A stretch of DNA of 64,000 nucleotides from the NCBI GenBank assembly GCA_024710405.1, contig JANJUV010000007.1, positions 124,001 to 188,000 on the forward strand, in the 5' to 3' direction. Of the stretch, positions 40,719-50,847 are shown piece after piece. Position 1 is the stretch's first letter. Each line of letters opens with the position of its first letter. Both the position numbers and the translations under genes were made by a program. This stretch comes from Bacteroidales bacterium (lineage in GTDB: Bacteria > Bacteroidota > Bacteroidia > Bacteroidales > F082). The notes beneath the pieces were generated by a model, which saw nothing but the letters and a program-made list of their open reading frames with translations, had not been told where the DNA came from and searched no databases.

Positions 40719-41078
40719 ATGAAAAAAATAATCCTTTTAAGCGTACTTGGTCTGGCGGTATTGTTTTCTTCCTGTAGAAAGGACATGGACAATAAGCCAA
40801 CCACACCTCCTACTATGGAAGAGCTTGAGATACCGGCTGATTTCGATTGGAAAACCATAAAGGACTTCCAATTGACCCTTACCGGTTATGCCAACAGCAT
40901 AGTTGAGGTTTCCTCTCCTGAAGGTGTTGTTTATCAGAAAGTTTTTCTGACCCGAAACGAACCTTATACCATGAAACTCACTGTTCCTACATATGAGCAG
41001 TCTGTCAGACTGAAATATATGGGACAAAATATCGAGTTGCAGTTAAGCACAACCAACATTGAGTACACCTTTAATTAA
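40719..41078 (+). CDS. Small lipoprotein of LruC unit 1
   Basis: The ATG at 40719 places a lipoprotein signal at the N-terminus (LSVLGLAVLFSSC, lipidated Cys ~20, then RKD). The mature protein (~100 residues) starts with a Pro/Thr-rich linker, then ELEIPADFDWKTIKD and a small beta domain ending in TMKLTVPTYEQSVRLKYMG. The motif FDWKTxK resembles the N-terminal segment of LruC proteins in other Bacteroidota. Here it is a separate gene, ten bases before the LruC gene. Role: probably a membrane-anchored partner of the large protein (inference). Confidence 0.8.
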   Translation: MKKIILLSVLGLAVLFSSCRKDMDNKPTTPPTMEELEIPADFDWKTIKDFQLTLTGYANSIVEVSSPEGVVYQKVFLTRNEPYTMKLTVPTYEQSVRLKYMGQNIELQLSTTNIEYTFN

Positions 41079-41088
41079 GGCAATCAAC

Positions 41089-42525
41089 ATGAAAACAATG
41101 AATCAATTCAGAAATTTCACCATTGTCGCTGCTATGCTGATGCTGATCTTTGGATCAGTTTCTGCTCATGCAGTGGTAGTGGTTTGTGAAATTACAAAAG
41201 TAAATGGTGGTGGTTTTACCACTACCATAGAATCTGTGACCTGCAACCCAAACGAAACACATACTATTGTGCTCAGGGTTGAACATAACGGTTGCGGAGG
41301 TCCTAGCTGTAAATCACTTTCGCATTACTCGGTGCAGGCAACCCCCGGCACATACAGCGATATCAGTGTGGAAGTTATATCGGGATCAATGAACTATGGT
41401 AATATTGATTTGGGACCAAATCTCGGAGTTGATCCTTTTCAGGGATTTAAGATCGACAATACTTCCGGAATTGGCGGTGGAAATGCAGGAGTGTTTACAA
41501 TTACCTATACCCTTTCCGGCCCGCTTCAGCAACAGATGGTTTCAGCCAAAGCCGGAACCAGCGGACAGTTTGCCACCTTTACTGTTGAAGACTTTGAATA
41601 TGTGATGAACTGTGCCGGTACTACCTGCGATGGTGGCGGAAACGACACTGATGGAGATGGATGCAACGATGATGAAGACGATTATCCGACCGACCCCGAC
41701 CGCTGCACCGACAACTTCTTCCCTGCCAATGGTTATGGCACACTTGCTTACGAAGACCTTTGGCCCGGCAAAGGTGACTACGATTTTAACGACCTCGTAC
41801 TGGATTATGAGTTCCAAGTTGTCACCAACTCACAAAATTACGTGGTGGAAATGTTCGGAACATTCATTATCAAAGCCTTTGGTGCTTCCTATGAAAATGG
41901 GTTCGGTTTCCAGCTTGAAGGACCTATCGATCCTGAAGATCTAACCGTCACAGGTTATTCACTCACCGAAAATTACATCACTCTGCTTTCTAACGGAACC
42001 GAGGCCGGACAATCTAAACCTGTAGTAATTGTTTATGATAACGCTTATAATCAGATGCAATGGCCAGGCGTTGGTATTGGAGTAAACACTGAGCTAAACA
42101 TGCCTTACATAACTCCTGACACATTAAACATCACCATTGGATTCCCTGCTGACACCTATACTTATGAGGATCTCAATATCGGAGGTTTTAATCCCTTTAT
42201 CATTGTGAATCAAAACCGGGGTGTTGAAGTACACCTTCCTGATTATGTTCCAACAGACCTGGCTGACCAGACACTGTTTGGCACTATGGAAGACTACAGC
42301 AATCCTGCGCAGGGAACCTATTACAAAACCGACAACAATCTTCCATGGGCGATTCATATCTATGAGAGTTTTTATTATCCCATAGAGAAACAACTTGTTC
42401 TCCTCGCCCATCTTAAGTTTGCCGAATGGGCAACCAGTGGCGGAGTGCTCTTCCCCGATTGGTACAAAAATCTTTCAGGATACAGAAACAACGACCTCAT
42501 ATATCCTGTGCCGGTACAAGACTGA
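41089..42525 (+). CDS. Secreted LruC-domain protein of unit 1, with calcium-binding-like motif
   Basis: The start at 41089 follows the lipoprotein stop and begins a signal peptide (~1-28, ending VSAHA). A Cys-containing beta domain (~30-185) is unrecognised. Next comes DTDGDGCNDDEDDYPTDPD (~187-205), a thrombospondin type 3/EF-hand-like repeat expected to bind calcium. The LruC domain runs from ~208 to the end: GTLAYEDLWPGKGDYDFNDL, NGFGFQLEG, and WATSGGVLFPDWYKN near the C-terminus. No type IX secretion signal is visible. It is the shortest of the three array proteins (478 residues). Confidence 0.82.
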   Translation: MKTMNQFRNFTIVAAMLMLIFGSVSAHAVVVVCEITKVNGGGFTTTIESVTCNPNETHTIVLRVEHNGCGGPSCKSLSHYSVQATPGTYSDISVEVISGSMNYGNIDLGPNLGVDPFQGFKIDNTSGIGGGNAGVFTITYTLSGPLQQQMVSAKAGTSGQFATFTVEDFEYVMNCAGTTCDGGGNDTDGDGCNDDEDDYPTDPDRCTDNFFPANGYGTLAYEDLWPGKGDYDFNDLVLDYEFQVVTNSQNYVVEMFGTFIIKAFGASYENGFGFQLEGPIDPEDLTVTGYSLTENYITLLSNGTEAGQSKPVVIVYDNAYNQMQWPGVGIGVNTELNMPYITPDTLNITIGFPADTYTYEDLNIGGFNPFIIVNQNRGVEVHLPDYVPTDLADQTLFGTMEDYSNPAQGTYYKTDNNLPWAIHIYESFYYPIEKQLVLLAHLKFAEWATSGGVLFPDWYKNLSGYRNNDLIYPVPVQD

Positions 42526-42546
42526 TATACATTTTCTTACAAAAGA

Positions 42547-42580
42547 AAAGCTGTCAGTGTGAAACTGCAGCTTTTTTTTT
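42547..42580 (+). terminator. Terminator after LruC unit 1
   Basis: AAGCTGTCAG and CTGCAGCTT form a hairpin (one mismatch) followed by nine T, 21 bases after the stop of the unit 1 LruC gene. Confidence 0.8.
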
Positions 42581-42732
42581 GATTTAGCACAATCGACTAC
42601 TGTTGCAATAATTGGACAAACTGTTCCAAAACGGGAAAATATTGATGTCAATTTAACTCTTATATCTTTTAAAATAAGACACATGTATACATTGGCATAT
42701 ATTTTGATATTCAATTGAAAAATTACTAAATC

Positions 42733-43095
42733 ATGAAAACGAAAATTAATTACTTCCTGCTTTCATTTCTTCTGATCACAATATTTTCGTCTTGCAGAAA
42801 AGATCTGACTGAGCCAAAAGCTACAGAATCTTCTATTGAAGATATAGCTGTTCCGGAAAGTTTTGACTGGAAAACCACCAAGGCATATACCATTCATTTT
42901 TCAACTCATGTTTCCGGACTTGTTGAAGTTAGCAATGTAAATGGAATTCCTTACCAAAGAGCGTTTCTTATTCCGGACAAAACCTACATGATGAACCTGA
43001 CAGTGCCTTCATATGAGAAAAAGGTTCATGTCAAGCATGGTTCTTTTACGAAGGAGATTGATCTTTTATCAGCAGAGATCTTCGTTAACTTCTAA
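42733..43095 (+). CDS. Small lipoprotein of LruC unit 2
   Basis: Signal and lipobox: FLLSFLLITIFSSC with lipidated Cys ~21, followed by RKD. The mature part has the same pattern as its two paralogues: IAVPESFDWKTTKAYTIHF, a beta strand pair with GIPYQRAFLIPDK, then NLTVPSYEKKVHVKHG. Length is 120 residues. The large LruC protein gene starts 58 bases after its stop. Close similarity to the unit 3 lipoprotein (shared VPSYEKKV-type phrase) supports a recent duplication. Confidence 0.82.
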   Translation: MKTKINYFLLSFLLITIFSSCRKDLTEPKATESSIEDIAVPESFDWKTTKAYTIHFSTHVSGLVEVSNVNGIPYQRAFLIPDKTYMMNLTVPSYEKKVHVKHGSFTKEIDLLSAEIFVNF

Positions 43096-43153
43096 TGTTT
43101 ATTAACATTTAAATATTAGAATATTTATTCTAAATCAAAAAAATAACCTAACT

Positions 43154-46018
43154 ATGAAAAATACTAAGAGAAAGAAAATTTTTAAAGCATTTCTTCTATC
43201 TTTAATTTTAAGCAGTTCATTTCTTTTTGTTAATGGTCAAAATATTAATTCCCTTCTTGGTAACCTTACTGACTATCATTTAGTTATTGGTGACGGCAGG
43301 ACTGATGCTAATTGGCAGGGTGCTAGCAAAGGATTTATCGGTAATGTTGCTGTCAGCTCAACTGCATCGCAAAGAACATCCGGCACAGTTCCTTATGCAG
43401 GAACTATTTACACAAATGCTGCTACTCAGAGTAGTTGGCAGGCGATTGTAAACGCTAATGCTGGCCAGGCATCTGGTATAGTTACCAACGAGACAGCAAG
43501 ATTGGTTGGCCTTTCAGCAGACCTCAACAGTGCCTTTACACAAATCAATGCCCTGACTGCCACATCAGGATTTGAGAATAGATCTTCGACATCTTTGGAT
43601 GGCTTGAATACTGTAAATGGACTAAACGAGATATACGTCATTAATATCACAAGTGTGTTAAGTGTATCATCCCAGATAGATATCACGGGTGACGCTGGTG
43701 ATCTATTCATTCTCCGGTGGGATACTGATGCGAATTTTGCCAATGGTTACGATGGTCAGGTCAAGTTCCAAAGCGGAGGTGCGATAGTGCCACACGGTGG
43801 TTTGACCCCAGGAAACTTCATACATGTTGCTGGGGATATCAACGCCTCCGGTGGTGGTAGTAATCCTACAGCACCTTACCCTCAAGGACCACGTTATGAT
43901 AACGGCCAAGGCGCTTTGATTGCAGGTGGGTCCAACTTCAGTGGTGGTGGTTTTTTTACAGGATATTGGCTGACCACTGGGAAACCTGACAATCCCGCCG
44001 ATGCGACCTGGGATGTACATTACGGTGAAAGCTCTTCTCTGAGCAATGCTATCTTCGTTGGGGGTTGGTACACAATTGCGACTAAATTTAGTATGACTTC
44101 AGGAACAAGTGGTGTGTATGTTGCCCCGCCGTCAATCACTCCCCCACCCGTGCAAGGTCTTAGCGGAAACGTGTTTCACGATATCAATGGTCTTGCCGAT
44201 AATACTGTAAATGGCACGAGTATTGGCCAAGCCTCAGGCGAAACTATCTTTGTGCATCTGCTAAACAATAATACCGAAATTGTAATTGATGTGAAATCTG
44301 TAAATATTGACGGTACGTATTCTTTTAATACCGCTGCTGGTCAATATAAAGTGCTTATAACCAATACACAAGGTGTTGTAGGGTCCCCTGCTCCAACAGT
44401 AATCTTTCCTAATGGGTGGGTTAATACCGGCGAAAACCTTGGAGCAGCTGCAGGTAATGACGGAACAACAGACAGCAAACTTTCCGTAACAGTTGTTGCC
44501 GATCAAATGACCTCAGATGCTAATTTTGGTATTCAGCAATTGCCTGTTCCTTCGGTTGCTACAGCACCTGCCCAGACTAACCCCGGAGGAAACAATTCTG
44601 CAACAGTTCCTGCAGCAACTTTTACTGCAGCTGATCCTGATGGTGAAGTTACTGCTATTTTGATCACCTCCTTCCCCTCCAATGCAACTTCAATTACCAT
44701 TAACGGAGTTCCCTACACAAGCGGAACATTTCCAATAGATGGAGTTGAAGTTCCTGCTTTGGCAAACGGAAATCCAACACATTCTGTTCTGGTTGATCCT
44801 GTTGACGGTGCTGTTACCGTAGATATACCCTTTAAAGCTAAGGATAATGCTGGATTCTTAAGTACAACTGCAGGAACAGCAAGCCAGCCTTTTATAGTGC
44901 CTGACGGTCCAACAGCTGTTGATGACCAGGCGACTACCCCAATCAACACTCCTGTTAACATCAACATTTTAAATAATGACATAGAAGGTTCAACACCTTT
45001 GGTGCCAGGAAGCATTAGTTTCATAGGTGGAACAGAGCCTGATCCCGCAACCGTTGGGGTATTCACAGTTGACCTTGTAACCGGTATTGCTACATTCACG
45101 CCTGCTCTTAATTACGTTGGAATTGCGACAATTGACTATGAAGTTTGTGATCAAAATAGCCTGTGCGATATTGCAACAATTACTGTTACTATAATTGATG
45201 GAGTATTAAACTTCTATCCGGCTCTTGGTCCCGGAACGCTGGCTTATGAAGACCTGTGGCCTGGAAAAGGTGATTATGACTTCAATGACCTCGTGCTTGA
45301 TTATCAATTTGAAATTTTAATCAATCCAAGCAATTTCGTCGAGCAGGTTAATGCTACCTTTACCATCAGAGCGTTTGGCGCTTCGTTCGAGAATGGATTT
45401 GGCTTCCAGTTGTCCGATGCCATTAACGCCGCTGACCTAACAGTAACCGGTTTCGACCTTTCAGAAGGTTTTGTTACGCTTGATCCCAATGGAACAGAAG
45501 CAAATCAAAGCAAACCAACGATTATTGTTTACGAAAACGCTTTCAATCTGATGCCGCACCCCGGTTCGGGAATTGGTGTCAACACTACACCCGGCAGCCC
45601 ATATGTGCAACCCGTTACCATTGTTATTGGCATTCAGTTTAAACCGAATACCTATTCTTACAATGACCTGGATATTGCCAATTTCAATCCATTCCTGATC
45701 GTAAACAAAGTCAGGGGCCACGAAGTGCACCTTCCGGATTATCCCCCCACTGATCTCGCTGATGTATCATTGTTTGGCATGTGGGAAGATGATTCTGATC
45801 CCCAAACAGGCAAGTATTACCTTACAGCAAATAATCTTCCGTGGGCTATCAATATCTACGAAAGCTTTGATTACCCGAAAGAAAAACAGGAAATTATCTG
45901 GGCACACCTTAAGTTTGCCGAATGGGCCACAAGTGGCGGTGTGCTGTTCCCCGACTGGTACAAGAACCTTCCGGGCTACAGAAATAACAACCTGATCTAC
46001 CAACGACCAAACAACTAA
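43154..46018 (+). CDS. Large secreted LruC-domain protein of unit 2
   Basis: A 954-residue protein. After a signal peptide (~1-29) comes a beta-rich domain (~30-325) resembling choice-of-anchor A or ice-binding-like (DUF3494) adhesin domains (DLFILRWDTDANF, LTPGNFIHVAGDINASGGG). Then an SdrD-B-like segment (LSGNVFHDINGLADN, ~336-460), a second beta domain (~466-583), a Big_9/cadherin-like repeat (GPTAVDDQATTPINTPVNIN, ~585-685), and the LruC domain from ~688. The middle repeats suggest a long stalk. It probably acts outside the cell, perhaps in adhesion; that is inference. Confidence 0.82.
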   Translation: MKNTKRKKIFKAFLLSLILSSSFLFVNGQNINSLLGNLTDYHLVIGDGRTDANWQGASKGFIGNVAVSSTASQRTSGTVPYAGTIYTNAATQSSWQAIVNANAGQASGIVTNETARLVGLSADLNSAFTQINALTATSGFENRSSTSLDGLNTVNGLNEIYVINITSVLSVSSQIDITGDAGDLFILRWDTDANFANGYDGQVKFQSGGAIVPHGGLTPGNFIHVAGDINASGGGSNPTAPYPQGPRYDNGQGALIAGGSNFSGGGFFTGYWLTTGKPDNPADATWDVHYGESSSLSNAIFVGGWYTIATKFSMTSGTSGVYVAPPSITPPPVQGLSGNVFHDINGLADNTVNGTSIGQASGETIFVHLLNNNTEIVIDVKSVNIDGTYSFNTAAGQYKVLITNTQGVVGSPAPTVIFPNGWVNTGENLGAAAGNDGTTDSKLSVTVVADQMTSDANFGIQQLPVPSVATAPAQTNPGGNNSATVPAATFTAADPDGEVTAILITSFPSNATSITINGVPYTSGTFPIDGVEVPALANGNPTHSVLVDPVDGAVTVDIPFKAKDNAGFLSTTAGTASQPFIVPDGPTAVDDQATTPINTPVNINILNNDIEGSTPLVPGSISFIGGTEPDPATVGVFTVDLVTGIATFTPALNYVGIATIDYEVCDQNSLCDIATITVTIIDGVLNFYPALGPGTLAYEDLWPGKGDYDFNDLVLDYQFEILINPSNFVEQVNATFTIRAFGASFENGFGFQLSDAINAADLTVTGFDLSEGFVTLDPNGTEANQSKPTIIVYENAFNLMPHPGSGIGVNTTPGSPYVQPVTIVIGIQFKPNTYSYNDLDIANFNPFLIVNKVRGHEVHLPDYPPTDLADVSLFGMWEDDSDPQTGKYYLTANNLPWAINIYESFDYPKEKQEIIWAHLKFAEWATSGGVLFPDWYKNLPGYRNNNLIYQRPNN

Positions 46019-46032
46019 AATTACTGAGACTA

Positions 46033-46064
46033 ATTAAAAGCCGGTGTTTCACCGGCTTTTTAAT
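46033..46064 (+). terminator. Terminator after LruC unit 2
   Basis: ATTAAAAGCCGGTG, loop TTT, CACCGGCTTTTTAAT: a perfect palindrome 14 bases after the stop, active on the plus strand. Confidence 0.88.
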
Positions 46065-46112
46065 AATAAATCCTAATTGATCATTAATCTTGAAGAGAGA
46101 GAACAAAAAATC

Positions 46113-46475
46113 ATGAAAAGATTTAGTTCCTTACTATTGATTGTAACATTGTTGCTGACAATTTCCTCTTGCCAAAAAGATCGCAATATAACATCTGATA
46201 AATTGCAGGCTATGGAAGAATTGACAATACCTGACAATTTTAACTGGAAAACAACACGCGACATCACTATTCAGTTTACGGCCAGCAAAACAGGAATTGT
46301 AGAGTTGCTCAACCTGTATAATGTAAGGTATCAGCAGGCATTTATCAACGAAATGGGCACGTACACCATGAAACTAACGCTGCCTTCCTATGAAAAAAAG
46401 GTTAAAGTTAAGTTTGGATCGCAGGAAACCGAGTTGGATATTACATCCGATATTTTGACTTACACTATTAACTAA
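46113..46475 (+). CDS. Small lipoprotein of LruC unit 3
   Basis: The start at 46113 gives a signal with lipobox TISSC (lipidated Cys ~20) and QKD after it. The mature protein repeats the family pattern: ELTIPDNFNWKTTRDITIQF, then VRYQQAFINEMGTYTMKLTL and PSYEKKVKVKFGS. Length 120 residues, as in unit 2. The LruC gene of the unit starts nine bases after its stop, so the two are probably translated together. Confidence 0.82.
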   Translation: MKRFSSLLLIVTLLLTISSCQKDRNITSDKLQAMEELTIPDNFNWKTTRDITIQFTASKTGIVELLNLYNVRYQQAFINEMGTYTMKLTLPSYEKKVKVKFGSQETELDITSDILTYTIN

Positions 46476-46484
46476 GGATTTTTT

Positions 46485-49043
46485 ATGAAACAAATACTAA
46501 AGAGAACCGTATTTTGTGCTTCATTGTTTTTACTGGCTGGCAACAGCTTCAGTCAATCAGGTATAAGCGCTATTCATTCTACTACAAGCAGTTCTGCTTC
46601 TTCGACGACTTATATTGCCAATGGCGCACTAAACTCACCTCTTGCAGGTAACAGTTATAACTACCGTTATGGATCGTCATCAGGCTTCAGCGACAACCAA
46701 CTCAGCCTCCTGTCTATTGAGGCTGCCTCTAAGGCCTACCGGTACGAGAGTATTCCTGTTGTTGTAAATTTTCGTCGCGTAAATAATCCTGGTTTTACTG
46801 GCGTTCGCGACCTTATGTTTTACTTTGGCGCATTGGACGGAAGTACGTTGAATCTTAAAGCGCCTTATGAGGACAATATGATTACGGCTTTTGAGGGAAA
46901 CACCAATATGCTTCGTGGGTCAGATAATTTATTTGCCAATGCCGTTGATGGCAATGGAAACATCAACAACATCGAGAGATTAGATGTAGTAGTTCCAGCC
47001 GGAGTTGTCATGACTTCAGCTTCAGGACAAGGATTTGCACTTATGGAAAGAGGAGCCCTGAACCAACATGATGCATTTGTAGTTGGTGTAATCACTTCAA
47101 TTGATGGTGGCGGAAACCCAACAACATATTCTTCACTGATTAGGGTAAATTCTTCGCATTACGGATCCGTTAATGTAGTTCCAAATCAAAACTCGGCTGT
47201 GCTCAGACGTGACAATGGGTCAGGTAATTTGTTGGTCAGCACAACTTTGTCAGGCCAGGGAATTGGAGGTGTGTTTTTTACATTCAGTGACTTTGGCATC
47301 ACCGATGGCCAAACAGTTTACGGTTACTCAGTAGCTGCTTCCGATTTTCCTGTTTCAGGATCTCCTGGTGATTTTGTCGATTATAACAACAGTATTAACT
47401 TTCCTTTGAACACCAGCGGATCGAACGTGGGTGGTATTGATATGATCGCGCTTACAGGCCTTGTACGCATTATTGACCTGTCAGGCAATGTATTTCACGA
47501 CGATAATGCACTGACAGACAACCTTGTTAATGGCAATCCTACAGACAATGCCGAAGGTAATCAGCTTTATGTCAACCTGATCAATAGTGCAAATCTGGTT
47601 GTTCAATCAGTACTTGTGCAAAATGATGGCTCCTTCAGTTTTGATGGTGCGCCTTTAGGAGACTTACGCCTGGAGCTAAGCACGATACAGGGAATCGTTG
47701 GCAATGCACCTCCCCTCCGCCAACTACCAGACCAAGAATGGGTGTACACGGGAACAACAGCAGGAAACGGATCTGTTGCCACGGGTAATCTGGGTTTTTC
47801 CCTGGTCACCGTTACCGATCAGGACATTACCGACATCAGATTTGGTATTCAGCAGAAACCAACTGCCGGAAATGCAGTAGCACCCATAATCGCACATCCC
47901 GGAGAAGGGGTTCATGTAACCGTAGATAACAATCTTTTTGTCACAAACGATCCTGATGGCCAGGTTGTTTCAATTAAACTCACAGCATTTCCGGCGAATT
48001 GTGCTGAGCTCATTGTTGACGGAACTGTATATACTGCCTTGACTTTTCCGGGAAGCGGTATCACTGTGCCGGCTGATCCATCGGGAAAACCAAACGTTGT
48101 TATCAGCGTTGCCCCATCTGCTGCAGCTTCTGAAATGATTATTTACTTTGTACCCATCGATAACGGAGGCTATGAAAGCAATGTTGCAGGAACAGTTACC
48201 CTCCCCCTTGATGTAAGCGGAGTGATTATCAGCAACCTATATCCTGCAACCGGACCGGGTACCCTTGCTTTTGAGGACCTTTGGCCGGGCAAAGGAGATT
48301 ATGATTTCAACGACCTTGTAATTGACTATCAATTTACTATATCCAGCAATTTGTCGAATTTCGTGAGCCAGCTTTCTGCTACTTTCACCATAAGGGCTTT
48401 CGGCGCTTCATTTGAAAATGGTTTTGGCTTTCAACTGCCGGCCATTATTGCAGCTTCTGACCTAACTGTAACCGGCTTTAACTTATCGGAAAACTATGTT
48501 GTTCTGAATGCAAATGGCACCGAGGAAGGACAGTCGAAACCCACCATCATTGTTTATGACAACGCCTTTGCATTGATGCCCCATCCTGGAATTGGCATAG
48601 GTGTAAATACAGAACAGGATGCACCTTATGTGACTCCAGTTACACTTACCATTACCATACTTTTTAAACCTAATACCTACACTTTAAACCAATTGGATAT
48701 AAGCAACTTTAATCCATTTCTTATTGTAAATCAAAACCGTTCGCATGAAGTGCACCTGCCGGGCTATCCACCAACCGATCTAGCCGATCTTTCGCTTTTC
48801 GGGCAATGGGAAGACAGCAGCGACCCTGCAACAGGCAAATACTACGTAACAGCCAACAACCTTCCATGGGCTATTAATATCTACGAAAGTTTTGATTATC
48901 CAAGGGAAAAGCAGGAAGTTGTTTGGGCTCATTTAAAATTTGCCGAATGGGCCATGAGTGGCGGGGTACTGTTTCCCGACTGGTACAAGAATTTATCCGG
49001 ATACCGGAACGAAAGTTTCATTTACCAAAGACCAAATCCTTAA
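46485..49043 (+). CDS. Large secreted LruC-domain protein of unit 3
   Basis: An 852-residue protein with a signal peptide (~1-24). The N-terminal ~300 residues are Ser/Asn/Gly-rich beta structure (NNPGFTGVRDLMFYFGALDG) unlike the unit 2 front. From ~335 it follows unit 2: an SdrD-B-like segment (LSGNVFHDDNALTDN), a second beta domain (~465-580) and the LruC domain (~584-852, GTLAFEDLWPGKGDYDFNDL). The Big_9 repeat of unit 2 is absent. The C-terminus ends in GYRNESFIYQRPNP with no sorting signal seen. It is likely surface-exposed or secreted. Confidence 0.83.
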   Translation: MKQILKRTVFCASLFLLAGNSFSQSGISAIHSTTSSSASSTTYIANGALNSPLAGNSYNYRYGSSSGFSDNQLSLLSIEAASKAYRYESIPVVVNFRRVNNPGFTGVRDLMFYFGALDGSTLNLKAPYEDNMITAFEGNTNMLRGSDNLFANAVDGNGNINNIERLDVVVPAGVVMTSASGQGFALMERGALNQHDAFVVGVITSIDGGGNPTTYSSLIRVNSSHYGSVNVVPNQNSAVLRRDNGSGNLLVSTTLSGQGIGGVFFTFSDFGITDGQTVYGYSVAASDFPVSGSPGDFVDYNNSINFPLNTSGSNVGGIDMIALTGLVRIIDLSGNVFHDDNALTDNLVNGNPTDNAEGNQLYVNLINSANLVVQSVLVQNDGSFSFDGAPLGDLRLELSTIQGIVGNAPPLRQLPDQEWVYTGTTAGNGSVATGNLGFSLVTVTDQDITDIRFGIQQKPTAGNAVAPIIAHPGEGVHVTVDNNLFVTNDPDGQVVSIKLTAFPANCAELIVDGTVYTALTFPGSGITVPADPSGKPNVVISVAPSAAASEMIIYFVPIDNGGYESNVAGTVTLPLDVSGVIISNLYPATGPGTLAFEDLWPGKGDYDFNDLVIDYQFTISSNLSNFVSQLSATFTIRAFGASFENGFGFQLPAIIAASDLTVTGFNLSENYVVLNANGTEEGQSKPTIIVYDNAFALMPHPGIGIGVNTEQDAPYVTPVTLTITILFKPNTYTLNQLDISNFNPFLIVNQNRSHEVHLPGYPPTDLADLSLFGQWEDSSDPATGKYYVTANNLPWAINIYESFDYPREKQEVVWAHLKFAEWAMSGGVLFPDWYKNLSGYRNESFIYQRPNP

Positions 49044-49059
49044 TAAATAGGAACTTAAT

Positions 49060-49101
49060 AAAAAGAGAGGCTACCCCCAACAGTATAGCCTCTCTTTTTT
49101 T
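49060..49101. terminator. Terminator between LruC unit 3 and the C69 peptidase gene
   Basis: AAAGAGAGGCTA and TAGCCTCTCTTT form a 12-bp stem with A and T runs on each side, so it can stop both convergent transcripts. Confidence 0.85.
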
Positions 49102-49116
49102 ATCAGGAATGATTGG

Positions 49117-50847
49117 TTATCTGTAGATAAACCTATCGCCGGTTTCAGCCGGAATCTGTTCCAGAAAATCTTTTGAATAACCCGGATGAGCGGGCGGTAA
49201 GGGATAACCCCACGGGTTTCTCAGAAAACGGCCGTCTTTTTCCTGTTTCACATTTCCATCCAGATATTTCACCAACAGGAAATCTCCAAGTTCTTTCCAT
49301 TCTTTTACGGTTGTCTCAGCCATGTTTACTGAGTAATCTGTCAGAAATTGCTTTGCCAGCGCAGTATCCGATTTCCACAAAAGTGTTGCAGCAGCATCAA
49401 TAGCAGGTGTGTAGTCCATGAATTTCTGTTCGAGTTGTGATTGTTTCTTACTGACATCCCCTATAACCCTGTTATAAAACAAGTAGGTAAAATGTGCCAC
49501 ACGGTTAAACACCCAGAAAGCAGCATCATCCGAATACTGTACCATATCGCCGTTGCCTTCGGCCCAGCTGGGTGGTACCCTGTTGATTCCACAGTAAAAA
49601 GGAACATAAACTGTAGTGCCGGCATCATCCACCCCAAACCAGTTTATTCCTCCGATCGGGTCGGGCAGCCATGAGCGCATCTGGGCGATAAACGAAAATC
49701 CGGTTTGCTGTGTAACAGTTACCCTCTCGTGGAAGTAGGTACTGTCATCCACTTTCCATGTCAATGGTCGCCAACGGTAGGGTTTGGCAAAAGGCCCGGC
49801 ACCCACATCCAGCGTCATATCCAGTTCAGTTCCCTGAAGGTAATCTCTTTTTGCCATCATCAAGTCATGAACAGAAATCTTTCTATTCGGTTTTACATAC
49901 AAAGGCATGCGTCCCGATTGAAGGTTCTTGCCGGTTGCGTAATCCCAATATTGATCCATTTCATCTGTGAAGCGGTTAAAAACGCTCCAAACCCTCAGTT
50001 CGCAAAAACGGGCTGCTCCAAATTCGATAGGTGCATACACATCGCTGAAACTGAATGCATCGTCAGTGCCCTGATAAAAACCCATGATCCGCGCAAAATC
50101 AATAACATCATGAGAATAAATGGTGTTTAGGTCAGGTGAATTAAGCTTGTCCCACTGCTTATTTGTTATGGAAGTGTTGCCGTCCGACAGTGTGAAACTG
50201 GTTATCCGTGCATGATTCGCGTGGGCTGAGATATACCCGTCAGGAATTCTAATGGCCACCCAGACTGCTCCTTTGTTGGCATTTATGTTCCTGCCTGTTT
50301 TGCGGTCATTCACCATCTTTGTTCCTTTGCCAATAAGTTCCATGATCCAGACTTCGTTTGGGTCACCAATGGAAAAGGACTCACCTGTGCTCGCATAACC
50401 ATGTTCTTCTACCAGATCAGCAATGACTTTAATGGCTTCCCTTGCAGTTTTCGCGCGTTGCAGTGCAAGAAACATCAGACTCCCGTAATCAATCAAACCG
50501 GTGGAGTCGCGTAAAACAGATCTTCCGTCAAAAGTTGATTCACCAATAGCCAACTGATGTTCATTCATAAAACCTATTGTCTGATAGGTGTAAGCGATCT
50601 GCGGAATCTGTGCCAGTGGTTTTGCTGTGCCGCGGTCATAAATTGTTACCACACTCCCCTTTGGCCAGTGATGCGCGGGCCTGAAGTAGAGTTCACCATA
50701 TCGGATGTGTGAGTCCGCAGCGTAGGTAATCATTGTAGATCCATCCACAGATGCTCCTTTGGTAACCAGAAAATTTGTGCAGGCCAAAGAGCTGTTCGCC
50801 AGCAGCAGCAAGAATAAGCCGGTTAAAGCCAGTATTTTCGTGTTCAT
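49117..50847 (-). CDS. C69-family dipeptidase
   Basis: After an N-terminal signal (~1-22) the mature protein should begin at Cys23 in ACTNFLVTKGASVDGS, the N-terminal nucleophile Cys of the NTN-hydrolase fold. YAADSH (~43-48) and the GESTFDGR segment are further family marks. At 576 residues it has the usual length of peptidase U34/C69 enzymes, which cut dipeptides. Because the Cys follows a signal peptide, it may also look like a lipoprotein to predictors; the family suggests autoprocessing or signal cleavage instead. Probably periplasmic. Confidence 0.9.
   Translation of the reverse strand: MNTKILALTGLFLLLLANSSLACTNFLVTKGASVDGSTMITYAADSHIRYGELYFRPAHHWPKGSVVTIYDRGTAKPLAQIPQIAYTYQTIGFMNEHQLAIGESTFDGRSVLRDSTGLIDYGSLMFLALQRAKTAREAIKVIADLVEEHGYASTGESFSIGDPNEVWIMELIGKGTKMVNDRKTGRNINANKGAVWVAIRIPDGYISAHANHARITSFTLSDGNTSITNKQWDKLNSPDLNTIYSHDVIDFARIMGFYQGTDDAFSFSDVYAPIEFGAARFCELRVWSVFNRFTDEMDQYWDYATGKNLQSGRMPLYVKPNRKISVHDLMMAKRDYLQGTELDMTLDVGAGPFAKPYRWRPLTWKVDDSTYFHERVTVTQQTGFSFIAQMRSWLPDPIGGINWFGVDDAGTTVYVPFYCGINRVPPSWAEGNGDMVQYSDDAAFWVFNRVAHFTYLFYNRVIGDVSKKQSQLEQKFMDYTPAIDAAATLLWKSDTALAKQFLTDYSVNMAETTVKEWKELGDFLLVKYLDGNVKQEKDGRFLRNPWGYPLPPAHPGYSKDFLEQIPAETGDRFIYR

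Follow-up and report, generated by a model that had tools for sequence, protein, structure and literature searches.

Gene pairs for a small lipoprotein and a LruC-domain protein form a tandem array in a Bacteroidales bacterium and may encode a two-piece surface anchor

The window analyzed in this study, a 64,000-nucleotide stretch of contig JANJUV010000007.1 from a Bacteroidales bacterium, carries three units on its forward strand at positions 40719-49043. The list of open reading frames (ORFs) bore out the order given in a preliminary description, namely a small lipoprotein gene followed each time by a large gene for a LruC-domain protein (Table 1). The two genes of a unit are separated by 10, 58 and 9 bases in units 1, 2 and 3, respectively; the start of the unit 1 partner was taken as the ATG at 41089, and the listed ORF begins at a TTG at 41059. 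The length of about 120 residues, the (F)(D/N)WKT motif and the beta domain described earlier were seen in all three lipoproteins, which share a lipobox, a C-[RQ]-K-D sequence, an F[DN]WKT motif and a beta-rich domain. The unit 1 lipoprotein is a homologue of the front found at the N-terminus of single-chain LruC lipoproteins. Within the window, this front and the lipobox stand on a separate ORF with its own stop, and the partners open with a signal peptide and contain no front. The mature lipoproteins were pairwise 36-40% identical (39% to the first in the full alignment) and far closer to each other than to any other family, and the three LruC domains showed 67-79% mutual identity. Recent triplication of one unit was ruled out by the degree of lipoprotein identity and by the N-terminal modules of the partners, which fall into different clusters. 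Of the amplification proposed earlier, the repetition of a lipoprotein-LruC chassis therefore stands, but the units are not three recent copies and they differ in their modules.

Table 1. Genes, domains and terminators of the array (positions in the window)
Feature	Position	Strand	Remarks
Unit 1 small lipoprotein, 119 aa	40719..41078	+	Signal II and lipobox (FSSC), CRKD, FDWKT motif, beta domain of ~80 aa
Unit 1 partner	41089..42525	+	Sec signal, N-terminal module 'CEITKxNGGGFTT', Ca-type DxDGDG motif, C-terminal LruC
LruC domain (TIGR04456), unit 1	41737..42468	+	243.4 bits (cut-off 36)
Intrinsic terminator after unit 1	42540..42582	+	Hairpin of -22 kcal/mol, z -5.9, U run
Unit 2 small lipoprotein, 120 aa	42733..43095	+	
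Unit 2 partner, 954 aa	43154..46018	+	Sec signal, Ig-like (Big_9) repeat, C-terminal LruC
LruC domain (TIGR04456), unit 2	45233..45964	+	244.5 bits (cut-off 36)
Intrinsic terminator after unit 2	46036..46062	+	Perfect 11-bp stem and U run, z -5.9
Unit 3 small lipoprotein, 120 aa	46113..46475	+	Predicted seven-stranded beta sandwich, pLDDT mostly >90
Unit 3 partner, 852 aa	46485..49043	+	Sec signal, third N-terminal module, SdrD/pilin-like Ig domains (model), C-terminal LruC
LruC domain (TIGR04456), unit 3	48258..48989	+	250.7 bits (cut-off 36)
Terminator after unit 3	49064..49100	+	Common to convergent gene 49117-50847

The claim that a LruC domain ends each large partner agreed with the profile scores, which were 243-251 bits for TIGR04456 and 178-191 bits (cut-off 22) for PF16130/DUF4842, and the partner chains stop shortly after this domain. 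No NCBIfam match to a PEP-CTERM or LPXTG sorting motif was found in the partners at E 1, and none of the 133 matches to the type IX tail TIGR04183 in the genome is located at the array or at another LruC locus. The front domain had no Pfam family above cut-off and no credible match, by sequence, among solved structures. DUF4841 (PF16129) was rejected as the identity of the lipoprotein, as it reached only 14.4 bits against a gathering cut-off of 25, in one member.

A terminator closes each unit and none lies inside the units, and each pair therefore looks like its own transcription unit. Direct folding, from which the three terminators came, placed no strong U-run hairpin between lipoprotein and partner gene in any of the three units; the scan for sigma-70 promoters and terminators performed no better than on shuffled sequences. 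The Bacteroidetes-type promoter pattern matched the window 8 times against 3.8 expected, with no match on the plus strand directly upstream of a unit. An A+U-rich hairpin lacking a U run (43090-43121, z -3.8), which is possibly regulatory, lies at the boundary between the lipoprotein and partner genes of unit 2.

It had also been proposed that a similar front and the LruC domain occur in one chain in other Bacteroidota, and that the present system is split into two genes. Both proposals were supported by fused homologues, which were found in the same genome and throughout the phylum. A hidden Markov model (HMM) was built from the three mature lipoproteins only, with the lipobox removed, and was set against a background of 147 x 20 shuffled decoys and all other ORFs of the fetched loci. 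With this profile, nine other front-bearing LruC chains of the genome outranked every decoy and every other fetched ORF. The 3.39-Mb genome contains 12 LruC matches, comprising the three window partners, one gene cut by an end of contig C15, which also carries the window (C15:613905-614180, seen in loci L010 and L021), and eight single chains, which start with a lipobox and an IPxxFxW-type front; the ninth front-bearing chain, on contig C8, runs off the contig just inside its LruC domain (L018:1-1808). The fronts of the fused chains align with the lipoproteins, with C, F.W and P conserved. Judged by sequence, what single-chain LruC lipoproteins carry as a front domain is here a separate chain, the small lipoprotein.

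Searches of other genomes indicated that the split form is conserved and is not a local accident, and that split and fused genes are found throughout Bacteroidales and outside this order. The lipoprotein profile, run on 173 genomes of the same family, recovered stand-alone frames of about 112-181 aa and fused frames mostly of 550-880 aa, often in one genome, with 2-5 stand-alone copies in tandem. Both forms were also present in the order-level sample and, in the phylum-level sample, in one genus of another class. At 40 family loci, a LruC partner directly followed 53 of the 65 lipoproteins, and most of the exceptions involved a contig end, a broken gene or the insertion of a gene of about 172 aa; at the order and phylum levels, the pair was kept in all 20 loci. 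A second search of named genomes, which used a LruC alignment and was independent of the lipoprotein, returned 79 loci, which came from Bacteroidales, Balneolia, Thermaurantimonas and others; the two locus sets overlap in some contigs, and identical sequences were counted once. Among the 87 complete and distinct LruC genes of this second set, 48 were fused (two of them frameshifted, and about ten assigned by eye from the lipobox and an F.[WFY] motif), 38 had a separate lipoprotein gene directly upstream, and one had neither. Thus, 86 of the 87 had a front, either within the same chain or on a lipoprotein gene upstream. The median intergenic gap of 113 split pairs was 25 bp, and only three complete LruC genes in all sets lacked a lipoprotein of their own, all of them beside other pairs.

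Two observations were made along with these searches. A conserved exported protein of about 172 aa with the motif GHVCGG[IL]I[HN]FE and no Pfam family occurs near the lipoproteins in arrays whose partners exceed 1700 aa (L056:7747-8262, L057:15600-16121, L059:7703-8218 and L060:12481-13002). In addition, a contig from a viral collection (IMGVR_UViG_3300042261_000534) encodes a fused front-LruC lipoprotein of 745 aa (L114:3498-5735) beside a phage-type NAD-dependent DNA ligase, which makes a phage-encoded surface protein possible unless the contig is not viral.

The split and fused states were compared on a tree of 126 LruC domains, from which two apparent splits that were in fact frameshifted fused genes (L184 and L190) had been removed. 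The split/fused label required 7 changes against a shuffled mean of 38.5, and at least three changes were forced by well supported branches. A single split clade was rejected, with the best constrained tree 83 log-likelihood units lower (p-AU 0.022, quick tree); the state has therefore changed more than once, and whether by fissions, fusions or both cannot be told. Lipoprotein and LruC distances were correlated (r 0.66), and shuffling the partners within arrays lowered the array-only fit from 0.60 to 0.48 (P 0.007). This cognate covariation fits a two-piece anchor, but duplication of whole units would give the same.

The N-terminal modules of the partners vary on this constant pair of domains. 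When 90 distinct split partners were clustered by their first 220 residues, with clusters defined by the absence of BLAST links between them, 11 clusters were obtained (sizes 32, 18, 13, 12, 5, 3, 3 and four single), with the lipoprotein and LruC remaining constant throughout. The window partners of units 1, 2 and 3 fall into clusters 0, 7 and 2, respectively. The 'CEITKxNGGGFTT' module of unit 1 belongs to the commonest cluster, and the module of unit 2 clusters with no other partner; the partners of units 2 and 3 are partly alike (34% identity over residues 133-576 of the latter). The minus-strand gene at 49117-50847, convergent to the last LruC gene, encodes a C69 family peptidase, and since its homologues, mostly 67-73% identical, adjoin arrays in about nine relatives, the array site is syntenic. 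The same site holds one cluster 0 unit in a genus mate, units of clusters 2-1-3 in genome G159 and of clusters 1-4-2 in genome G037. The array is thus a conserved site with one to several units whose modules differ among species. Elsewhere, partner modules include an exosortase-type surface domain (Npun_F0296), choice-of-anchor Q, DUF11, Big_9, CARDB and CshA-like repeats, and fused chains carry laminin-G domains. Modules of these kinds are usually accompanied by some C-terminal anchor.

The complex prediction that had been suggested as a check was carried out on unit 3 as one chain. The two genes of this unit lie in one frame with a three-codon gap, and the pair can therefore be read through the stop as a single chain. 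The model was built from this read-through chain, with the stop read as G and the signal peptide in the middle; its alignment held 13 other read-through pairs and 30 fused chains, and the fused rows helped the model. The lipoprotein beta sandwich (pLDDT mostly >90) and LruC were confident and the middle was unsure (pTM 0.52). The best structural match was 3OQQ, a putative B. ovatus lipoprotein (Z 25.6, rmsd 3.6, 312 aligned residues), covering model residues 60-974, which start at the second strand of the lipoprotein, and 3OQQ residues 41-456; LruC can account for at most about 259 of the 312 aligned residues. A natural fused chain of 438 residues that consists of front, linker and LruC only (L129, pTM 0.82) matched 3OQQ likewise (Z 24.8, 308 aligned residues, L129 75-437 on 3OQQ 41-456), the match beginning just ahead of the second strand of the chain. 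For these superpositions, the reported ranges give the end points only. The superposition from lipoprotein to LruC is consistent with docking, and the same domain arrangement in the modeled split pair, the modeled fused chain and the 3OQQ crystal suggests that the two proteins dock in this manner. Matches to SdrD, UafA, pilins, transthyretin and TssJ had Z scores of 6-10, reflect common Ig-like folds and were given no weight in assigning membership. No published function for 3OQQ was found in the literature searched.

The sequence after the lipobox cysteine bears on location. C-X-K was found in 89% of the split lipoproteins against 24% of the other lipobox ORFs in the same loci, and C-X-K-[DE] in 61% against 11%. 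In Capnocytophaga canimorsus, the lipoprotein export signal (LES) is C-X-K-(D/E)2 after the cysteine, with two acidic residues required (PMC5080379), whereas a second acidic residue was present in only 11% of the split lipoproteins. By analogy with this signal, the resemblance of C-X-K-[DE] makes surface exposure of the split lipoproteins likely. We know of no route over the outer membrane for a partner that has neither a lipid nor a type IX tail, and the partner may cross bound to its lipoprotein.

Taken together, these data are best read, with a probability of roughly 60%, as a two-piece anchor, with the lipoprotein retaining interchangeable modules at the outer membrane through their C-terminal LruC domain. 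Each unit would be a two-gene operon in which the seven-stranded beta domain of the lipoprotein binds the LruC domain of the downstream partner with no covalent link, through the same face by which the two domains meet in single-chain LruC proteins. The partner would be held at the outer membrane by its C-terminus, leaving the N-terminal modules free to point outward; modules would be exchanged between units and species on a constant lipoprotein and LruC, and the tandem array would be a collection of different adhesive modules that share one chassis. The docking geometry is predicted from the models, and we infer stable binding in the cell, surface orientation and adhesive function; the surface assembly suggested earlier would fit this reading. 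A wider proposal, to which we give somewhat less than even odds, is that LruC is a general C-terminal attachment domain and the cognate lipoprotein its dedicated non-covalent outer-membrane receptor, allowing display with no type IX tail, sortase or exosortase signal or lipidation of the cargo, with arrays exchanging modules on a fixed chassis.

The same pairing and fusion data would also fit a lipoprotein that serves as an escort or pilot: it would bind LruC in the periplasm and assist folding or delivery of the partner, after which the partner would be released or passed to another anchor. That the partner has no known export route, no lipid of its own and no type IX tail agrees with this idea. 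It is nevertheless unlikely, because in about half of the family the two domains are joined in a single lipidated chain, which speaks for a lasting tether rather than a transient escort. It is rather improbable that the LruC proteins polymerise into a fibre with the lipoprotein as basal or capping subunit, as in Bacteroidota pili: Ig domains of the modeled partner that are like those of SdrD and pilins, the resemblance of the front fold to pilin Ig domains and the several different partners per array lend themselves to this idea, but one lipoprotein per partner and fusion in cis point to a 1:1 relation, no donor-strand or sortase feature was found, and Ig-fold Z scores of 6-10 are common. Equally hard to sustain is history alone, by which the genes stay linked and their products act separately and do not touch, for although operon linkage and unit duplication could account for part of the covariation, the split state changed more than once on the LruC tree, the pairing holds almost universally even among very distant taxa, and the match of the predicted chain to 3OQQ extends from its lipoprotein part through to LruC.

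A two-piece anchor would be of interest beyond this locus. LruC/DUF4842 proteins are widespread, including leptospiral surface antigens and ice-binding proteins, and no role has been assigned to their shared domain. As anchor and cargo are separate proteins in the split form, what LruC does can be tested directly with a lipoprotein of 120 residues and a domain of 260 residues. If the two bind, a mechanism would be gained for a whole class of surface proteins, and the arrays would provide a natural toolkit for protein display on Bacteroidota. In this group of bacteria, these findings suggest, the membrane anchor is maintained as a component of its own, and the exported modules attached to it are changed.

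LruC proteins are already known by name, and the split pair and its arrays appear to be new within the literature searched, in which no description of a separate lipoprotein or of arrays was found (most subscription journals lay outside the search). The single-chain LruC/DUF4842 lipoproteins (TIGR04456, PF16130), such as Leptospira LruC, LIC13086 and Bacteroides ovatus BACOVA_00967 (3OQQ), have the same C-terminal LruC domain, and those of Bacteroidota also have the same N-terminal front and lipobox, with a fold match to 3OQQ at Z of about 25. In contrast to these proteins, the array encodes front and LruC as two proteins in tandem units, and the partner is not lipidated and carries a Sec signal of its own. 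The choice-of-anchor surface proteins with LPXTG, PEP-CTERM or type IX tails are alike in their N-terminal surface modules and exchangeable C-terminal end, whereas the end in the array is LruC paired with a separate lipoprotein, with no covalent sorting signal. Proteins of the same genome with type IX C-terminal tails (TIGR04183) are likewise exported and modular, and a C-terminal domain decides their attachment; unlike this cargo, the LruC proteins have no TIGR04183 match. Finally, the DUF3494 ice-binding proteins with DUF4842 from Arctic Bacteroidetes and Gammaproteobacteria also carry LruC/DUF4842 as the C-terminal end on an unrelated module, and a survey has reported that DUF3494 proteins end in a C-terminal DUF4842 or, alternatively, in PEP-CTERM (PMC9957290).
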